Shown one piece after another: positions 1,824 through 37,310 of a DNA stretch of 40,718 nucleotides. Positions within the stretch are counted from its first letter, which is position 1. Every line of letters starts with the position of its first letter. The notes beneath the pieces are model-generated. The model ran no database searches. It was not told where the DNA came from and was given only the letters and a program-made list of their open reading frames with translations. Position numbers and translations under genes: made by a program. This stretch comes from a virus: positions 1-40,718 of the IMG/VR virus record IMGVR_UViG_3300037297_000048; one strand, written 5' to 3'.

Positions 1824-1911
1824 AGAGTACTAGCGAACTTTGAAAGGGGATGTTTTCCATTGACGGGAAGCATCCCTTTCTCTTTTTAGGGTTTGTACAC
1901 GCTAGTACTCT
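1824..1911. repeat. 12-bp perfect inverted repeat enclosing a terminator
   Basis: AGAGTACTAGCG (1824-1835) and CGCTAGTACTCT (1900-1911) are perfect reverse complements and bracket the terminator hairpin. Part of the right arm (GTACACGCT, 1895-1903) recurs at 2029-2037. In RNA the two arms could pair and place the terminator in the loop of a larger structure. Confidence 0.7.
1842..1888 (+). terminator. Rho-independent terminator after the 1215-1783 unit
   Basis: Stem GAAAGGGGATG (1842-1852) pairs with CATCCCTTTC (1871-1880) with one bulged G; the inner TTCC/GGAA pairs extend it. TCTTTTT follows at once. Orientation is rightward. Confidence 0.8.
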
Positions 1912-3917: not shown

Positions 3918-4292
3918 ATGAAGGACCTCACCACTCTCAACAAATACCGAATCCGAAAAGGGCCCTACGCTTCCGAACTGGAAGACTCAGACCATGGGGC
4001 GTTCTCGATCCCGCTAGGCAACGGAAAGCGCTTCCATATCATCGCCTCTTCCGGCATGGGGTGGGACCATGTTTCCGTTCACGTTAGGATCGTAGGCAAG
4101 GGCAAGGCCATCACTCCGAACTTGGAGGAGATGTGCAAAGTGAAGGATCTGTTCTTCGACGAGGAGGAGTGCGTTGTCCAGTACCACCCGCGAAAGAGCG
4201 AGTACGTGGATATGCACCCTCATGTTTTACACCTTTGGCGACCGAACGAGCCGGGTGTTTCAATTCCAGAACCAAGAAAGGAGATGGTTTAA
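3918..4292 (+). CDS. DUF7694-like conserved phage protein
   Basis: 124 aa. The hallmark string is visible: GWDHVSVHV (residues about 48-56), EEMCKVKDLFF, EECVVQYHP, KSEYVDMHPHVLHLWRP. This family is common in phages of diverse hosts and has no assigned biochemical role; the conserved His, Cys and Trp suggest a compact, possibly metal-binding fold. Starts 6 nt after the previous stop behind AAACAGATATG. Confidence 0.85.
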   Translation: MKDLTTLNKYRIRKGPYASELEDSDHGAFSIPLGNGKRFHIIASSGMGWDHVSVHVRIVGKGKAITPNLEEMCKVKDLFFDEEECVVQYHPRKSEYVDMHPHVLHLWRPNEPGVSIPEPRKEMV

Positions 4293-4295
4293 CAA

Positions 4296-4763
4296 ATGAA
4301 GAAATTCAGCGAATACTACTTCGAGAACTACGACCAACAGTTCCTAAACCGCAGCACTGTAGAAGTCACTAAAGACCTCATGCAGGCCGTGGAGGACTAC
4401 ATGGACACCTACGTTACCCCGAACGCGAAAGAGACTGAAGATCCAGCTATCGATCGATCTTGGAAGATCGTTTCACAGGATAACTTCCGGTCTGATCAAG
4501 TTAATCTTAACGATGACTACGATATGGCTCGAATAACTCTAGATATTCCAATTCGGGATAAGTGGAAGCTTGGTATAGCTCAGGACGCGAAAGAGGCTCC
4601 TGCGAGCTCTCAGCCGTCTTGGGAGGTCATTGCGGACGAGTTGGCTTCTGCCTTGGCAGCAGAATCGAACCCTAGCAGGACTTACGCGATAGCGTCGTAT
4701 GATAGAATAAAGTCTCGAATGGCTCTGAAAGCATTCGGCAAAGCGAAGGAGGCCAACAAATGA
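4296..4763 (+). CDS. Hypothetical phage protein
   Basis: 155 aa, acidic first half (YYFENYDQQF..., EDYMDTYV) and an Ala/Lys-rich helical C-terminus (RMALKAFGKAKEANK). No recognised motif. Starts 3 nt after the DUF7694-like gene and overlaps the next gene by the 4-nt ATGA junction, so the three are one translational unit. Confidence 0.75.
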   Translation: MKKFSEYYFENYDQQFLNRSTVEVTKDLMQAVEDYMDTYVTPNAKETEDPAIDRSWKIVSQDNFRSDQVNLNDDYDMARITLDIPIRDKWKLGIAQDAKEAPASSQPSWEVIADELASALAAESNPSRTYAIASYDRIKSRMALKAFGKAKEANK

Positions 4764-4942
4764 GCAAGGGTAAGCGAGGACGCCCAGGGCAGTTCGACGA
4801 GCCCACCAAGCCGATACAGTTCCGCTTGCCAGTGTCGCAGGTGCAATGGGTGAAGGAGGAAGCCGAGAAGCGCCAAACCACCACCAGCAAGCTAGCTTCA
4901 GACGCTCTCGAGAAAGAGAGGGAAAGCAATAAGGGGGAGTAG
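4760..4942 (+). CDS. Ribbon-helix-helix (CopG/Arc-type) DNA-binding protein
   Basis: 60 aa. A basic glycine-rich arm (SKGKRGRPGQF) is followed by PIQFRLPVSQVQWVKEEAEKR (beta strand plus helix 1) and TTTSKLASDALEKERE (helix 2), the usual RHH layout; N-terminal strand residues such as Gln and Arg would contact DNA. Probably a dimeric repressor and a candidate ligand of the phage operators. Coupled by ATGA to the upstream gene and followed by structured element A. Confidence 0.75.
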   Translation: MSKGKRGRPGQFDEPTKPIQFRLPVSQVQWVKEEAEKRQTTTSKLASDALEKERESNKGE

Positions 4943-5017
4943 AACCCCAGCCATCAGACGCGGAGCGAAGCGGAGTTGTCTGCGTGGCGTTGTTATCTAA
5001 AATCTTAAAAAACCGAT
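4941..5017 (+). promoter_or_regulatory. Structured intercistronic element A
   Basis: Hairpin GCCA-t-CAGAC (4950-4959) with GTCTG-cg-TGGC (4978-4988), then GTTATCTAAAATCTTAAAA (4991-5009) and AACCGAT before ATG 5018. A weaker closing pair AGAAC (4941-4945) with GTTATCT is possible. Same plan as the elements at 5204, 5776 and 6171: hairpin, GTT-rich 3' arm, A/T-rich tail, start codon. Confidence 0.5.
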
Positions 5018-5209
5018 ATGAAACTAGAAAGATACCGAAAAACAATGACGCATGAAGTCCTGCAATCTTGGGCCGAAGATGCACAAAACAACATAGATGA
5101 AATGCGGGGTGCACTCCAGTGGTTCTTGACCCCCGACCATCCAATAGGAAGCGACCCAGAGTTGATTAGAAAATTCGAAGAGAAAGCGAAGGGCCTGTTG
5201 AATAGATAA
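5018..5209 (+). CDS. Small hypothetical protein
   Basis: 63 aa, largely helical and charged (MTHEVLQSWAEDAQNNIDEM..., PELIRKFEEKAKGLLNR). No family is recognised. It begins in the AAAACCGATATGAAA context directly after structured element A, and its stop codon lies within the closing stem of element B, so the two cistrons may be controlled by RNA structure. Confidence 0.65.
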   Translation: MKLERYRKTMTHEVLQSWAEDAQNNIDEMRGALQWFLTPDHPIGSDPELIRKFEEKAKGLLNR

Positions 5210-5310
5210 CCGCTAGGTGAAGTGCAGCCACATGAACTAAACCGTAACCCTACCAGACGCGCGACTGTGGCTGTTGCTTCTACCGTCTGGTTATCTGAGA
5301 TTTTTAAATT
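5204..5310 (+). promoter_or_regulatory. Structured intercistronic element B (pseudoknot-capable)
   Basis: Three perfect pairings: GCAGCCACA (5224-5232) with TGTGGCTGT (5266-5274, outer pair G-U); ACCAGACG (5252-5259) with CGTCTGGT (5284-5291); AGATAACC (5204-5211) with GGTTATCT (5289-5296). The first two interleave as an H-type pseudoknot with loops of 19, 6 and 9 nt. The third would close the domain and competes for two bases. GATTTTTAAATT then leads to ATG 5311. Confidence 0.65.
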
Positions 5311-5526
5311 ATGAGTGAATACAAAGTTATTTCTAGCCTGAGACATTGGGAACTGGAAAAGGAGGTAAATATGGCAATGTCCGATGGATGGAAGTTGGCC
5401 GGTTCGATGAATCAAACCACTGAAGTTATACTGATACCACCAAACAATATGAGTCCGAGCTGTGCAGCTGATCTCACATGGAGGTCTAAGACGTTAACTC
5501 GATACAGTCAATCAATGGAGAGATAA
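5311..5526 (+). CDS. DUF1737-like small protein
   Basis: 71 aa. Residues 3-33, YKVISS...ELEKEVNMAMSDGWKLAGS, match the short DUF1737 pattern (YKVV...L-x-x-x-V-N-x-x-x-x-x-GW-x-x-x-G), a beta-alpha-beta unit found alone in many phage and bacterial small proteins. The C-terminal 35 residues look unstructured. Function unknown. Start ATG follows the A/T-rich tail of element B without a Shine-Dalgarno site. Confidence 0.7.
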   Translation: MSEYKVISSLRHWELEKEVNMAMSDGWKLAGSMNQTTEVILIPPNNMSPSCAADLTWRSKTLTRYSQSMER

Positions 5527-5540
5527 CACCAAGTACAGCT

Positions 5541-5777
5541 ATGAGCGGAGAAAACGAAAGACGTAAACTTGAAATGGATAACATGGGAAGACCAGTGGGC
5601 GAGGAGCCACGCGGGGACCGTAGCGAATTGGCTGTGTCGGTATGTTCTACCTCTCTTTCTGAGGCTCTTTGGAGGGCAGATAACGCTCACCTTGGAGAAA
5701 TGACGGAAGATGCCGCAAAACGATTAGCCTTTGAAGTCAGACGCCTCCTAGGTTGGAAGTGTGATCAGTCTTCGTAG
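5541..5777 (+). CDS. Small hypothetical protein
   Basis: 78 aa; a polar N-terminus (MSGENERRKLEMDNMGRP) is followed by a helical C-terminal half (LSEALWRADNAHLGEMTEDAAKRLAFEVRRLLGW). No motif is recognised. It starts 14 nt after the DUF1737-like gene and ends just before structured element C. Confidence 0.6.
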   Translation: MSGENERRKLEMDNMGRPVGEEPRGDRSELAVSVCSTSLSEALWRADNAHLGEMTEDAAKRLAFEVRRLLGWKCDQSS

Positions 5778-5880
5778 AACCGCGACTTCTCACGCGTAGA
5801 GAAGATCGGAGCGATGAACGAAGTTGTGAGCAATGATTTGTTCTCGCTAATTTTTAACTCAACAAAACGATAATATAGCA
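5776..5880 (+). promoter_or_regulatory. Structured intercistronic element C
   Basis: Stem AGCGA-t-GAACGAA (5810-5822) with TTTGTTCTCGCT (5837-5848): 12 pairs with one bulged T and one G-U. Hairpin CTTCTC-ACGCGTA-GAGAAG (5786-5804). CTCAC (5789-5793) can alternatively pair with GTGAG (5826-5830) in the loop of the long stem, giving a pseudoknot or switch. Tail GCTAATTTTTAAC and an A-rich leader precede ATG 5881. Confidence 0.55.
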
Positions 5881-6168
5881 ATGGCAATGGGATACATATC
5901 ACCAGAAGAAGCCTTGAAGAGGCACAAACTCAGGCAAAACCAACTAAGCGGAAAAGGTCCGCAGCCAACAATGAAACGTGACCATATCATGTACACGCCG
6001 GAAGATGTGAAGATCGTGAAAGACCCGCACCATGGAGGATTAACATCGTGGATGTATTGGGATGGTGACTTCTGGAATAAGCCGGGGGTTCAGAAAAGAT
6101 GGACCCGATGCAAGAAAGTGAGCATGACGCCGGATCGCTTGAAGGTGTTGGCAACGCTTTTTGATTAA
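5881..6168 (+). CDS. Hypothetical phage protein
   Basis: 95 aa with an aromatic centre (GGLTSWMYWDGDFWNKPGVQKRW) and basic residues throughout; no named family is recognised. It lies between structured elements C and D and has no Shine-Dalgarno site (TATAGCAATG). Confidence 0.65.
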   Translation: MAMGYISPEEALKRHKLRQNQLSGKGPQPTMKRDHIMYTPEDVKIVKDPHHGGLTSWMYWDGDFWNKPGVQKRWTRCKKVSMTPDRLKVLATLFD

Positions 6169-6170
6169 TC

Positions 6171-6257
6171 TGAGAACGTCCTAGTGATACGCGGCGGCTT
6201 GCCGACGTTGTATCCACTAGCTTGTTCGAACTAATTTTTAATAAGGAGAAAAATGTA
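6171..6257 (+). promoter_or_regulatory. Structured intercistronic element D
   Basis: CTAGTGATAC (6181-6190) pairs with GTATCCACTAG (6210-6220): ten pairs with one bulged C. AACGTC (6175-6180) pairs perfectly with GACGTT (6204-6209), interleaved with the first stem. With no loop nucleotides between them the two stems probably exclude each other, as in a two-state switch. Palindrome GTTCGAAC, then CTAATTTTTAAT, then a real Shine-Dalgarno site (AAGGAG, 6243-6248) 9 nt before ATG 6258. Confidence 0.55.
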
Positions 6258-32546: not shown

Positions 32547-33014
32547 CTACTTCTGGCACGATAGCCATCTCTCCATGACATCTTGCAAGATCCGCTCTCC
32601 CCAATCTCCCATCGCACAATTTACGAGGTGCAAAACGATGCGTATATTATCATAAATATATCCATTAGACGGATCTATTCTGTCGATGCTTGGAGTGTTG
32701 AATGGCTTACCTGGCTCAAGACTAAAAGGATAACCAGTAAGTTCACAGCGTCCCTTATCCACCCGGGCTTGAATTTCGGCGACATAGGAATCAAGTCCGA
32801 ATTCAATTCCCTTTCGCTTACAGCGAGTCCTGACTGTTGCTATCATGCATTGAGCACGCTTCTCCAATCTCCGCTTTGCTTCACGCTCATCAAGGCGTTC
32901 CTTGTTTTGAGATCTATATCGTTTATGATATTCAGATCGCTTTGCTTTTATGTCAGGTCGGGAATTGTACCTGCGCTGTTGCTCCCGCTTCTTATTCTTA
33001 TCCTTGTAGGGCAT
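32547..33014 (-). CDS. HNH homing-type endonuclease
   Basis: 155 aa from ATG 33014, overlapping the methyltransferase stop by 17 nt. Very basic N-terminus (DKNKKREQQRRYNSRPDIKAKRSEYHKRYR) followed by CELTGYPFSLEPG and SIDRIDPSNGYIYDNIRIV...NCAMGDWG, the D-R-I-D...N...N pattern of mobile HNH proteins. Nucleotide composition is A/T-richer than flanking genes, suggesting recent acquisition as a freestanding mobile gene. Confidence 0.78.
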   Translation of the reverse strand: MPYKDKNKKREQQRRYNSRPDIKAKRSEYHKRYRSQNKERLDEREAKRRLEKRAQCMIATVRTRCKRKGIEFGLDSYVAEIQARVDKGRCELTGYPFSLEPGKPFNTPSIDRIDPSNGYIYDNIRIVLHLVNCAMGDWGERILQDVMERWLSCQK

Positions 33015-34065
33015 AAATAGATTTCTCAAATGATTCTATAAATTCTGATGCGACATATGGATTGATTGCATTCCCGTAGCCTCTCAATCGCATGACTCTG
33101 CGGGCTTCTTTGTTGCTTTCCGTGAGTGGACTGGAAGCTGGCACGAAAGCGCCGCTAGGCACCACTTTGGAGGAAAACCCATCAGCCACGCACTGAACCT
33201 TGGATTCAATACGCATCGTTTTCCCGTCTGTGCAGGGGAGGAGGTCGAAGGTATCCCAAGGGTTGCTTGATTCGGAAGCTCCTTCTTTCCCACCCCCGCA
33301 GACTCGCGGGAGTCCGATGCCAGAGGAGTCGCCCAGCCTGCTAGTGTCACCGCATCGCAAAGCGTCAACCCGTCGTGGTGCTTGCTGTTCGGGTTCGATC
33401 GAGAAGCCGTCCGGTTCCTCCCTCCCCTCGAGTCGTTCACTGTTGGTGTAGGCCAACCCGCCAGCACTACCGCGGCCGTCGGCAGGTCGTATCCGTTCTT
33501 TCTCCGGTTCGCCTCCCGGTAAGCTCTCTCGTTTGATCGAGTTCCTTTGTCCCCGTCCGCTGCTCGCGGCGTAGGCCACCCAGTAGAGTCTTTGGCGGAT
33601 GTGCGGCGCGTTGACGCTCGCAGCGCACAGATCTGCGGCCCCGACTGCATATCCCATCGCTTCCAGGTCAAGGCGTACTCCATCGAGCCATCCACGCCCA
33701 GCCTTGCTTGCAACCTGCTCTCCAAAGACGACTGGAGGGCTTCCGTCGTCAATGAGGCTCTTGAAGTGTGGCCAGAGGTGGCGCTCGTCCTTCTCGCCTT
33801 TTCCCTTTCCCGCCACGCTGAAAGGCTGGCACGGACAAGATCCCGTCCATACTTCCCGATCCCTTGGCCACCCTGCAAGCTGGAGAGCCAGAGACCAGCC
33901 TCCGATTCCTGCGAAGAAGTGGCACTGGGCATATCCCAGAAGGTCATTTGCTCGCACGTCCGCGATGCTTCTTTCGTCAACGTCTCCATCTGGTATCAGT
34001 CTTTCCTTGATGAGTTCCCGTAGCCATGCCGCGGCTTTCGGGTCGTTCTCGTTGTAGTAGTTCAA
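32998..34065 (-). CDS. C5 cytosine DNA methyltransferase
   Basis: 355 aa. Motif I FFAGIGGW (50-57, AdoMet), motif IV GSCPCQPFS (75-83, catalytic Cys79), motif VI as GEQV (115-118, EQV where most have ENV), motif VIII RQRLYWVA (158-165) and motif X GYGNAINP (329-336). N-terminus YYNENDPKAAAWLRELI is typical of the phage subclass. Residues about 170-320 (target recognition region) have low complexity because they share bases with a second frame (33084-33989). Probable job: modify phage DNA against host restriction. ATGA overlap with the helicase loader upstream. Confidence 0.9.
   Translation of the reverse strand: MNYYNENDPKAAAWLRELIKERLIPDGDVDERSIADVRANDLLGYAQCHFFAGIGGWSLALQLAGWPRDREVWTGSCPCQPFSVAGKGKGEKDERHLWPHFKSLIDDGSPPVVFGEQVASKAGRGWLDGVRLDLEAMGYAVGAADLCAASVNAPHIRQRLYWVAYAASSGRGQRNSIKRESLPGGEPEKERIRPADGRGSAGGLAYTNSERLEGREEPDGFSIEPEQQAPRRVDALRCGDTSRLGDSSGIGLPRVCGGGKEGASESSNPWDTFDLLPCTDGKTMRIESKVQCVADGFSSKVVPSGAFVPASSPLTESNKEARRVMRLRGYGNAINPYVASEFIESFEKSIYALQG
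33084..33989 (-). CDS. WPTP-motif protein encoded in another frame inside the methyltransferase gene
   Basis: 301 aa, wholly nested in the methyltransferase gene (its codons about 26-327) in a different minus-strand frame. Contains ALQSSLESRL, GSMEYALTWKRWDMQSG, ICALRAS, GWPTP at about 137-141 and 178-182, GWATP at about 218-222, and LNPRFSAWLMGFPPKW at 261-276. From memory these strings recur in phage proteins overlapping dcm-like genes, and WLMG-x-P resembles C-terminal strings of some C5 methyltransferases. This argues for real dual coding, but a search is needed to prove it. Function unknown. Confidence 0.6.
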   Translation of the reverse strand: METLTKEASRTCEQMTFWDMPSATSSQESEAGLWLSSLQGGQGIGKYGRDLVRASLSAWREREKARRTSATSGHTSRASLTTEALQSSLESRLQARLGVDGSMEYALTWKRWDMQSGPQICALRASTRRTSAKDSTGWPTPRAADGDKGTRSNERAYREANRRKNGYDLPTAAVVLAGWPTPTVNDSRGGRNRTASRSNPNSKHHDGLTLCDAVTLAGWATPLASDSRESAGVGKKELPNQATLGIPSTSSPAQTGKRCVLNPRFSAWLMGFPPKWCLAALSCQLPVHSRKATKKPAESCD

Positions 34066-35839: not shown

Positions 35840-36224
35840 TGCTTGGAGCCTCTTGAATGGATTTCTCTGCGACCGAGCTGCAAACTGTCGCCGAGTAGTC
35901 CTCCATAATCAGCTTACGCTCTACTGGCGCAGACATTTTGGTGTCGCTGGAAGTTCCGGATACGGCGACGCCTTCGTACCAGCTTAGGCCCTTGTCCTTT
36001 GGCTTGTGATACCATAGCCGACGAGCATTCGAAAGAACGCAACCTTGTGCGTCTGCCGATTCGAGGAACCCAGCGTTTATACCTTCGTTTCGGCTACGAA
36101 CAATGACGTATTTACCGATCAGCGCGGAAGCCACGCTGGATGCGTTAGGCGCGCTGCCTTTGACGAGCGCGGAGATCTGCTTGAACTGTCCAAGCGTGAG
36201 ACTGTCTATGTCTATTTTGTTCAT
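35826..36224 (-). CDS. DUF6948-like phage protein
   Basis: 132 aa. Recognisable string IGKYVIVRSRNEGINAGFLESADAQGCVLSNARRLWYHKPKDKGLSWYEGVAV: the family core KYVIVR...G...L-x-N-ARR-W. C-terminal SAPVERKLIMEDYSATVCSSVAEKSIQEAP also fits. Small beta-barrel-like phage protein of unknown function. Downstream gene start overlaps its stop. Confidence 0.8.
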   Translation of the reverse strand: MNKIDIDSLTLGQFKQISALVKGSAPNASSVASALIGKYVIVRSRNEGINAGFLESADAQGCVLSNARRLWYHKPKDKGLSWYEGVAVSGTSSDTKMSAPVERKLIMEDYSATVCSSVAEKSIQEAPSNAQS

Positions 36225-36230
36225 GATGTT

Positions 36231-37310
36231 TTAGTATTGGATGGTGATGTTTGGGACGAGTCCCTTGTAGATTGCGGTGACAACAGCCTTGGCATCCTCC
36301 TCGGTGATTCCCACGTGCTGGACAAAGGCGTCCTTGGCGGCGTTGTTGATCTTCTTCATATGCTCTCGCATAGCATCGTTTTTGTTGATGACCGGGAGAT
36401 CTGGATATTCCTCTGGAGTTGTGGCTGGTTCATCTGGAGATGAAGCATAGGGATCCCCGATGAGTTTTGCCTGAACCTTATTCAAGGTCTCAACGGCTTG
36501 GTCAAACGTGACAGGCTCGGCGAAATCCACGAAGCCGCGTCCAGGAATCATCCAACCCTTACGCTTCTCCGGCTCGGCGTCATTCCTAGCTTGCTCCTCA
36601 GCCTGCTTCTTGCGAGCTCGCTCCTCGCCTTCCAAGCGAAGCTGTTCAGCTTTCTCCTCTTCGATGCGCGCTTGCTCCTTGGCTTCCAGCTCGGCAAGGC
36701 GCTTGTCCCGCTCGATGTCGGCTTTCAGGCTGACGATGGAGTGTTCCAAGAACTCTGCGGTTCGCTTGAACTCAGCTTTAGCCTCGTCCTCGAACTCCTC
36801 AAAGGAGACGTCCACCTTGATGTCAGATAGCATATCAACGCGTCCCTCGTATTGCTCAAGAACGCATTGCTTTTCTTCTCTTGCATCCTGAGCAGGGTAG
36901 GCTTGATTTCTCAACCCCTTTATCTCCTCGATAGCGTCCCGATGCTTCTGCTGCCTTGCGGCCTCCTTCTCCTCCCACTCCTTACGGCCAGCAAGCCGCT
37001 TGTCGCGTAGTTCGTCGCACTTGTCTCGGATGAGCTTACGCCGTCCGTCCACTTCTCGGATCTTCGCCTTAGCGTCGGAAACGATACCTTTGCCATGGTC
37101 GTCAACCAGCGTCTTGATGGAGGAGATCTGACGGGCAATAGTGTACTCCCGCTTTCGTCCTTCTTCCGTCGAACAGTCGCAGACTTCGAGGAACGCTTCC
37201 TTCTCGATCTTAGCCAGCATCTTCTCGGCAAGCTCTGGCTTCGATGGAATAAAGAGTTCCCCAAGATTGAACTCGTCGATGCTGATTATTTGGGTGGTGG
37301 TCTCGCTCAT
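36231..37310 (-). CDS. Coiled-coil recombination accessory protein (DUF1351-like)
   Basis: 359 aa, long Glu/Lys/Ala/Arg coiled coil at residues about 90-245 (ARKKQAEEQARNDAEPEKRK region). The segment KREYTIARQISSIKTLVDDHGKGIVSDAKAKIREVDGRRKLIRDKCDELRD is typical of phage proteins placed between exonuclease and annealing genes. The C-terminus (VQHVGITEEDAKAVVTAIYKG) may be a separate small domain. It probably forms a scaffold for the nuclease and annealing protein. ATGA overlap with the exonuclease. Confidence 0.72.
   Translation of the reverse strand: MSETTTQIISIDEFNLGELFIPSKPELAEKMLAKIEKEAFLEVCDCSTEEGRKREYTIARQISSIKTLVDDHGKGIVSDAKAKIREVDGRRKLIRDKCDELRDKRLAGRKEWEEKEAARQQKHRDAIEEIKGLRNQAYPAQDAREEKQCVLEQYEGRVDMLSDIKVDVSFEEFEDEAKAEFKRTAEFLEHSIVSLKADIERDKRLAELEAKEQARIEEEKAEQLRLEGEERARKKQAEEQARNDAEPEKRKGWMIPGRGFVDFAEPVTFDQAVETLNKVQAKLIGDPYASSPDEPATTPEEYPDLPVINKNDAMREHMKKINNAAKDAFVQHVGITEEDAKAVVTAIYKGLVPNITIQY

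Follow-up and report, generated by a model that had tools for sequence, protein, structure and literature searches.

A probable small cassette array in a tailed phage, with attC-like sites reversed relative to its genes

Small genes and the gaps between them

The DNA analysed here over its full length (the window) is an IMG/VR record of 40,718 bases from a tailed phage, with genes for a terminase large subunit, a P22-like portal and a major head protein. No close relative turned up in the collections searched; its terminase shares no more than 47% identity with IMG/VR relatives, and its portal ∼31% with those of isolates. A run of small genes on the plus strand is interrupted by four gaps, which we call A to D. 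The gene before gap A (4760..4942) encodes 60 aa with weak CopG/ribbon-helix-helix similarity; its start overlaps the upstream gene, and we therefore treat it as a flanking phage gene and not as a cassette. Cassette 1, between A and B, holds one gene of 63 aa (5018..5209), and cassette 2, between B and C, holds two, the first of 71 aa and DUF1737-like (5311..5526; PF08410, E 5e-4, 20.2 bits, below the cut-off of 24), the second of 78 aa (5541..5777). The gene of cassette 3, between C and D, encodes 95 aa (5881..6168) and has a relative in Xanthomonas phage PhiXhv-2 (E 7e-4, 38% over 61 aa), which was the only relative of any cassette protein found in IMG/VR, INPHARED and plasmids.

Just upstream of the array, at 3918-4292, lies a DUF7694 gene that also occurs in Pseudomonas, Sphaerotilus and Manatee Spring phages, and the IMG/VR contig L252 has this gene too, with equal gene order up to the terminase and without the array. 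With terminase relatives this distant and a syntenic contig that lacks the array, no relative with swapped cassettes is available for comparison; indeed, we found no recombined relative, and cassette exchange was not seen for this array. A BLASTN search of the site region against phages gave no match.

The four gaps had been described in an earlier note on this DNA (4941-5017, 5204-5310, 5776-5880 and 6171-6257), and they are present at these coordinates, with stems that begin at or next to a stop codon, a 3′ arm that ends in GTT and an A/T-rich tail. The tail was said to be mostly ATTTTTAA, which is correct for B, C and D (5300..5307, 5850..5857 and 6234..6241, plus strand), while site A has ATCTTAA at this place, its leader motif being given as ATCTTAAA (5002..5009, plus strand, 7 nt past GTT). 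The 40.7-kb window has three copies of ATTTTTAA (5300, 5850, 6234) and none on the opposite strand; each begins exactly 7 nt past the GTT of B, C or D, and the one after D is followed by AAGGAG. DNA patterns built on this leader motif matched chance sites in A/T-rich phages only. Read in the direction of the genes, a cassette thus consists of a site, an N7-ATTTTTAA leader, a start codon, the gene, and a stop codon that falls within the next site or beside it. The start codon placed at 6257 after D needs correction, as the ATG there runs straight into TAA; the likely start is 6260.

Anatomy of the four sites

On the plus strand each gap follows the same order: AAC, 8–9 nt, an inner stem arm, a variable tip, the second arm, an extrahelical base, 8 nt and GTT. 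Site A (4939..4998, minus polarity) has boxes GTAGAAC (4939-4945) and GTTATCT (4992-4998), an extrahelical C at 4983 and the arrangement T-N6-C on the plus strand. Site B (5204..5296, minus) has fully complementary boxes, AGATAAC and GTTATCT, with an extrahelical T at 5281 and T-N6-T. Site C (5774..5846, minus) has boxes GTAGAAC and GTTCTCG, an extrahelical C at 5831, T-N6-C and a short outer stem of 2 bp, and site D (6171..6230, minus) has boxes TGAGAAC and GTTCGAA, an extrahelical C at 6215 and T-N5/6-C. The distance from the outer extrahelical base to the GTT box is exactly 8 nt at all four sites, as predominates in the real integrons of our reference set; an unpaired spacer is present, and each site has two extrahelical bases ∼6 nt apart on one plus-strand arm, as expected of attC. 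For attC sites, efficient excision is reported when one side of the folded bottom strand has T-N6-G or T-N6-C (PMC3053210). A strong hairpin elsewhere in the window (1836-1893, AAAGGGGATG...CATCCCTTT), followed by a T-rich stretch and probably a terminator, has no extrahelical base.

The common architecture, and not the folding energy, sets these gaps apart from chance. DNA folding z-scores for A to D were +0.35, −0.68, −0.50 and −2.45, unusual for D only; stability is thus ordinary for the base composition at the other three and weak proof by itself, and we dropped folding energy as evidence for structure because it was not significant for A to C. In an unbiased scan of the whole window for AAC, 8 or 9 nt, a stem, its partner with one extra base, 8 nt and GTT, the top three plus-strand sites were D, A and B, and C ranked fifth. 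First-order Markov sequence yielded 0.25 sites per strand that scored at least as high as C, and the observed score was matched by none of 4000 dinucleotide shuffles for each of A, B and D and by 4 of 4000 for C. The earlier claim of one plan in four copies, with structure conserved rather than sequence, is borne out: the four structured gaps lie far above chance through their common architecture. The scanner also scores the published attC sites of phage TJE1 and those of the Shewanella M16-3 integron, and these two and the window were the only places with same-polarity clusters in 326 loci (3.38 Mb). A looser R-box scan with constrained folding gave mostly noise.

A covariance model, trained on 26 canonical attC sites (two of TJE1, so that its TJE1 matches are not independent, and none of the window), gave its two best window matches at D (20.8 bits, E 0.0084) and B (9.4 bits, E 3.8), both on the minus strand. 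A and C gave no match at E ≤10, and other phage contigs, 1.09 Mb in all, gave none at E ≤0.1. The window thus has four sites by architecture within 1.3 kb, of which one (D) is significant by the covariance model, and no match to PF00589. With integron attC sites (aadA, VCR, Shewanella, Chloroflexota) they share the AAC/GTT boxes, the unpaired spacer, the extrahelical base 8 nt from the core, a second extrahelical T, a variable terminal stem, a stop codon at the box and the serial cassettes. They differ from them in that model scores are low for three of the four, that the conserved GGC before GTT is absent, that the strand expected to recombine is the coding strand, and that the boxes are not GTTRRRY. 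RYYYAAC...GTTRRRY was found at none of A to D in either orientation, AAC/GTT alone being conserved, and three of the four core boxes are GTTC in minus-strand reading; in TJE1, the site at 1020-1071 (GTTATGC) likewise departs from strict RRRY. Since A and C are assigned by architecture alone and the core boxes are off GTTRRRY, we call the sites attC-like and not strict members of the class. The record has no tyrosine recombinase match, although it may be a fragment, and hence holds no complete integron (intI plus attI); without an integrase match in the contig, the region probably corresponds to a small CALIN-like array (an attC cluster without integrase) with three complete cassettes.

Polarity of the sites, in the window and in other phages

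In canonical sites the extrahelical base lies 8 nt past AAC, on the 5′ arm of the gene-carrying strand. The window sites have it on the 3′ arm instead, 8 nt ahead of GTT, which places the canonical reading on the minus strand. Minus polarity was obtained in three tests: the scanner, a sequence profile of the reference sites (all four sites) and the covariance model (B and D). The genes, however, are on the plus strand, and plus-strand stop codons fall inside the left box of A (TAG of the flanking gene), B (TAA of cassette 1) and C (TAG of the second gene of cassette 2). In a canonical cassette the gene runs toward its attC and the bottom, template strand recombines; here both covariance matches are minus-strand and every cassette gene is plus-strand, and an integrase would therefore use the coding strand. 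The boxes that flank cassette 1 are complementary at 7 of 7 positions (GTTATCT/AGATAAC) and those of cassette 3 at 6 of 7, while those of cassette 2 match poorly; box complementarity is uninformative as a test of polarity, as both polarities compare identical box pairs. We also considered, and rejected, real genes on the minus strand, since minus-strand ORFs cross the sites and the plus-strand genes have homology support.

To our search of the open-access literature for opposite, reverse or inverse cassette orientation, nothing relevant to phages was returned. CALINs in phages have been published (TJE1, PH101, MW202573 and P12002L; Qi et al. 2023, PMC9892861), and these resemble the window array in their attC clusters, small genes and lack of an integrase. 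By the covariance model two of them are inverted as well: in MW202573 (L123:2069-3738) the four attC matches are minus-strand and the genes plus-strand, and in PH101 (L524:25919-27987) the four attC matches are plus-strand and the annotated genes minus-strand, one cassette also holding an unannotated plus-strand ORF (L524:27466-27714). The attC sites of PH101 are reported to recombine with IntI1 (PMC9892861); that paper describes the direction of the PH101 cassettes as typical, and no remark on attC polarity relative to the genes occurs in its main text. The TJE1 array, in contrast, is mostly canonical, and the window sites differ from the published ones in being more divergent and in having the ATTTTTAA leader.

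A scan with a near-consensus attC pattern yielded five more inverted phage contigs from IMG/VR (G705, G706, G707, G708 and G710), in all of which a terminase, portal or head gene serves as phage hallmark. G710 (IMGVR_UViG_3300032053_001104; L532, 3231-7918) has ∼11 attC sites in one array; at each of the 10 sites tested an ORF ends at the inverted-side box, and at 9 of 10 a start codon comes close behind the site, usually after an AAGGAG-type leader. Most of its cassettes end in a stop codon that lies inside the following box or beside it. G705 (IMGVR_UViG_3300017707_001413), a phage with terminase and portal genes, encodes its own recombinase of 319 aa (36011-36970; L536:16011-16970), which scores 274.5 bits against the NCBI integron-integrase cut-off of 265, has an IntI-type segment around LPHQLARKYP and has Vibrio IntI4 as its best solved relative. 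Six attC matches lie beside this integrase gene, upstream of it and on the opposite strand as in ordinary integrons, and the cassette genes mostly face the opposite way, so that the genes are the flipped part. Both contigs are like the window in having inverted attC arrays within phage operons, and G710 also in its leader directly after the site and in a stop codon within or beside the following box; they differ from it in their near-consensus GTTAGGC boxes, in the AAGGAG-type ribosome sites (G710) and in the integron-type integrase (G705). An integrase ∼39% identical to that of G705 is encoded by Virus Rctr41k (KX853513; L547:4680-5678), for which the model gave no convincing attC; its sites may be divergent.

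The orientation of bacterial cassettes is different: at integron loci of public genomes the cassette genes were canonical in 62 of 65 intervals and in 6 of 6 more (68 of 71). When we tallied sites with an ORF that ends at the box, phage sites were inverted in 24 cases and canonical in 6 (9 further sites gave no call), compared to 4 and 36 for bacterial integron sites (11 further sites without a call). The difference is significant by Fisher's test (p 2e-9), with the qualification that sites within one array are not independent and that the ORF rule is noisy for short genes; site A itself is labelled canonical in this tally, owing to a 136-aa antisense ORF that spans site B. The number of arrays is therefore the safer figure. 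Eight phage arrays lean inverted (the window, MW202573, PH101, G705, G706, G707, G708 and G710), on thin evidence for G707 (one interval) and G708 (one site), and prophage records with a whole bacterial integron platform (Vibrio p16, Shewanella M16-3 and G709) look canonical. We also searched for host integrons of mirrored polarity in the phyla of a Bacteroidota MAG and a Chloroflexota MAG that both carry integrons, where few arrays were detected, all canonical. In the phylum of the Bacteroidota MAG, 106 of 395 sampled genomes have an integron integrase above the cut-off, with few detectable attC clusters nearby.

Interpretation of the array

We propose, with a probability of roughly 0.7, that this tailed phage has a small array of exchangeable cassettes here, CALIN-like and with attC-like sites reversed relative to the genes. 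Each site would fold as a single-stranded DNA hairpin, and a tyrosine recombinase of integron type, provided in trans by the host or a co-infecting element, would bind and recombine it. Given the extrahelical geometry, the plus strand, on which the genes are encoded, would be the recombinogenic one, opposite to ordinary integron cassettes, and an integrase of the host or of a co-resident integron could swap cassettes through this folded coding strand. As a reason for the reversal, we infer that it keeps the genes in sense with the phage operon while making the coding strand the recombinogenic one; this strand would be exposed in transcription and, if the genes are co-directional with replication, would be the lagging-strand template, on which attC folding is favoured (PMC8946536).

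Decay is the main alternative: the gaps may be remnants of an old array, with inactive sites that are kept as spacers or weak terminators. The degenerate core boxes, the low covariance-model scores of A to C and the lack of an integrase match would all fit such remnants, but the extrahelical geometry and the stems are intact at all four sites, the boxes of cassettes 1 and 3 retain their complementarity and the leader motif is retained. In addition, useless DNA tends to be lost from phages, and we consider decay unlikely, at perhaps one chance in a few. That another phage or host recombinase, Xer-like or other, uses sites that have converged on folded hairpins of opposite polarity is improbable. 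Such an enzyme might account for boxes unlike GTTRRRY, the inverted polarity and the absence of an encoded integrase, yet MW202573, PH101 and G710 are equally inverted and have near-consensus attC sequences, IntI1 is reported to act on the PH101 sites, and G705 combines an inverted array with an integron-type integrase.

The earlier note took the elements to be mainly RNA-acting, and cis-acting mRNA structures that control translation, stability or processing, with no role in recombination, would explain why they lie in 5′ leaders between stop and start codons, with stable RNA folds for B and D and a common A/T-rich leader behind them. Such structures leave unexplained the 8-nt spacing of the extrahelical base, the T-N6-C pair, the AAC/GTT boxes, the match to a model of bacterial attC sites and the equal format in attC-bearing phages, and the folding energy of A to C is near that of shuffled sequence; we judge this reading very improbable. 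The interleaved 8-bp pairing noted for B (5252-5259/5284-5291) exists in the sequence and is absent from the other copies, and the elements do fall outside known riboswitch classes, Rfam finding only a tRNA at 1115-1187 in the window above its gathering scores. The conserved details match those known from integron attC sites, whose working form is a folded single strand of DNA, and from its sequence each gap is best read as a DNA recombination site with integron attC anatomy and not as a new RNA regulator. Hairpins in 5′ leaders could nevertheless act on translation as well, a secondary effect that is plausible since modulation of translation by attC hairpins has been reported (Jacquier 2009, cited in PMC8946536). 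An error in our polarity call, with ordinary canonical attC sites or with minus-strand genes as the true ones, is likewise very improbable: the near symmetry of the sites and a 136-aa minus-strand ORF at 5005-5415 speak for it, but minus polarity is favoured at all four sites, that ORF crosses site B, and the plus strand has two genes with homology support and three stop codons within boxes.

The reversed polarity in most of the other phage arrays examined suggests that phages use a reversed cassette format. A wider proposal, which we make tentatively and hold at somewhat less than even odds, is that tailed phages keep this as a distinct format, with attC 5′ of each gene and the coding strand bearing the recombinogenic hairpin, with exchange coupled to transcription or to lagging-strand exposure while the cassettes remain in sense with the operon, and in some phages (G705) driven by an integron-type integrase of the phage itself. 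The polarity of integron attC sites is thought to serve the insertion of cassettes in the direction expressed by the integron promoter. If phage arrays are consistently opposite, this polarity rule would not be general, and phage cassettes would form a separate pool, unexpressed on entering bacterial integrons and moving mainly between phages. A consistent reversal would also tie folded-DNA recombination in viruses directly, and testably, to the strand that is transcribed or replicated. It would predict which short intergenic hairpins of environmental phages mark exchangeable accessory genes, among which anti-defence genes would be expected.

Hairpins between small phage genes have a precedent in the PeSL promoter/stem-loop modules of T4-like phages, which are linked to gene shuffling, thought to proceed via homologous recombination; boxes of attC type and extrahelical geometry are not known from these modules. 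Elsewhere in the window, the minus strand has a 194-aa ORF at 40-624 that consists largely of Ala/Asp/Arg/Trp repeats, and a C5 cytosine DNA methyltransferase gene (PF00145) at 32998-34065.
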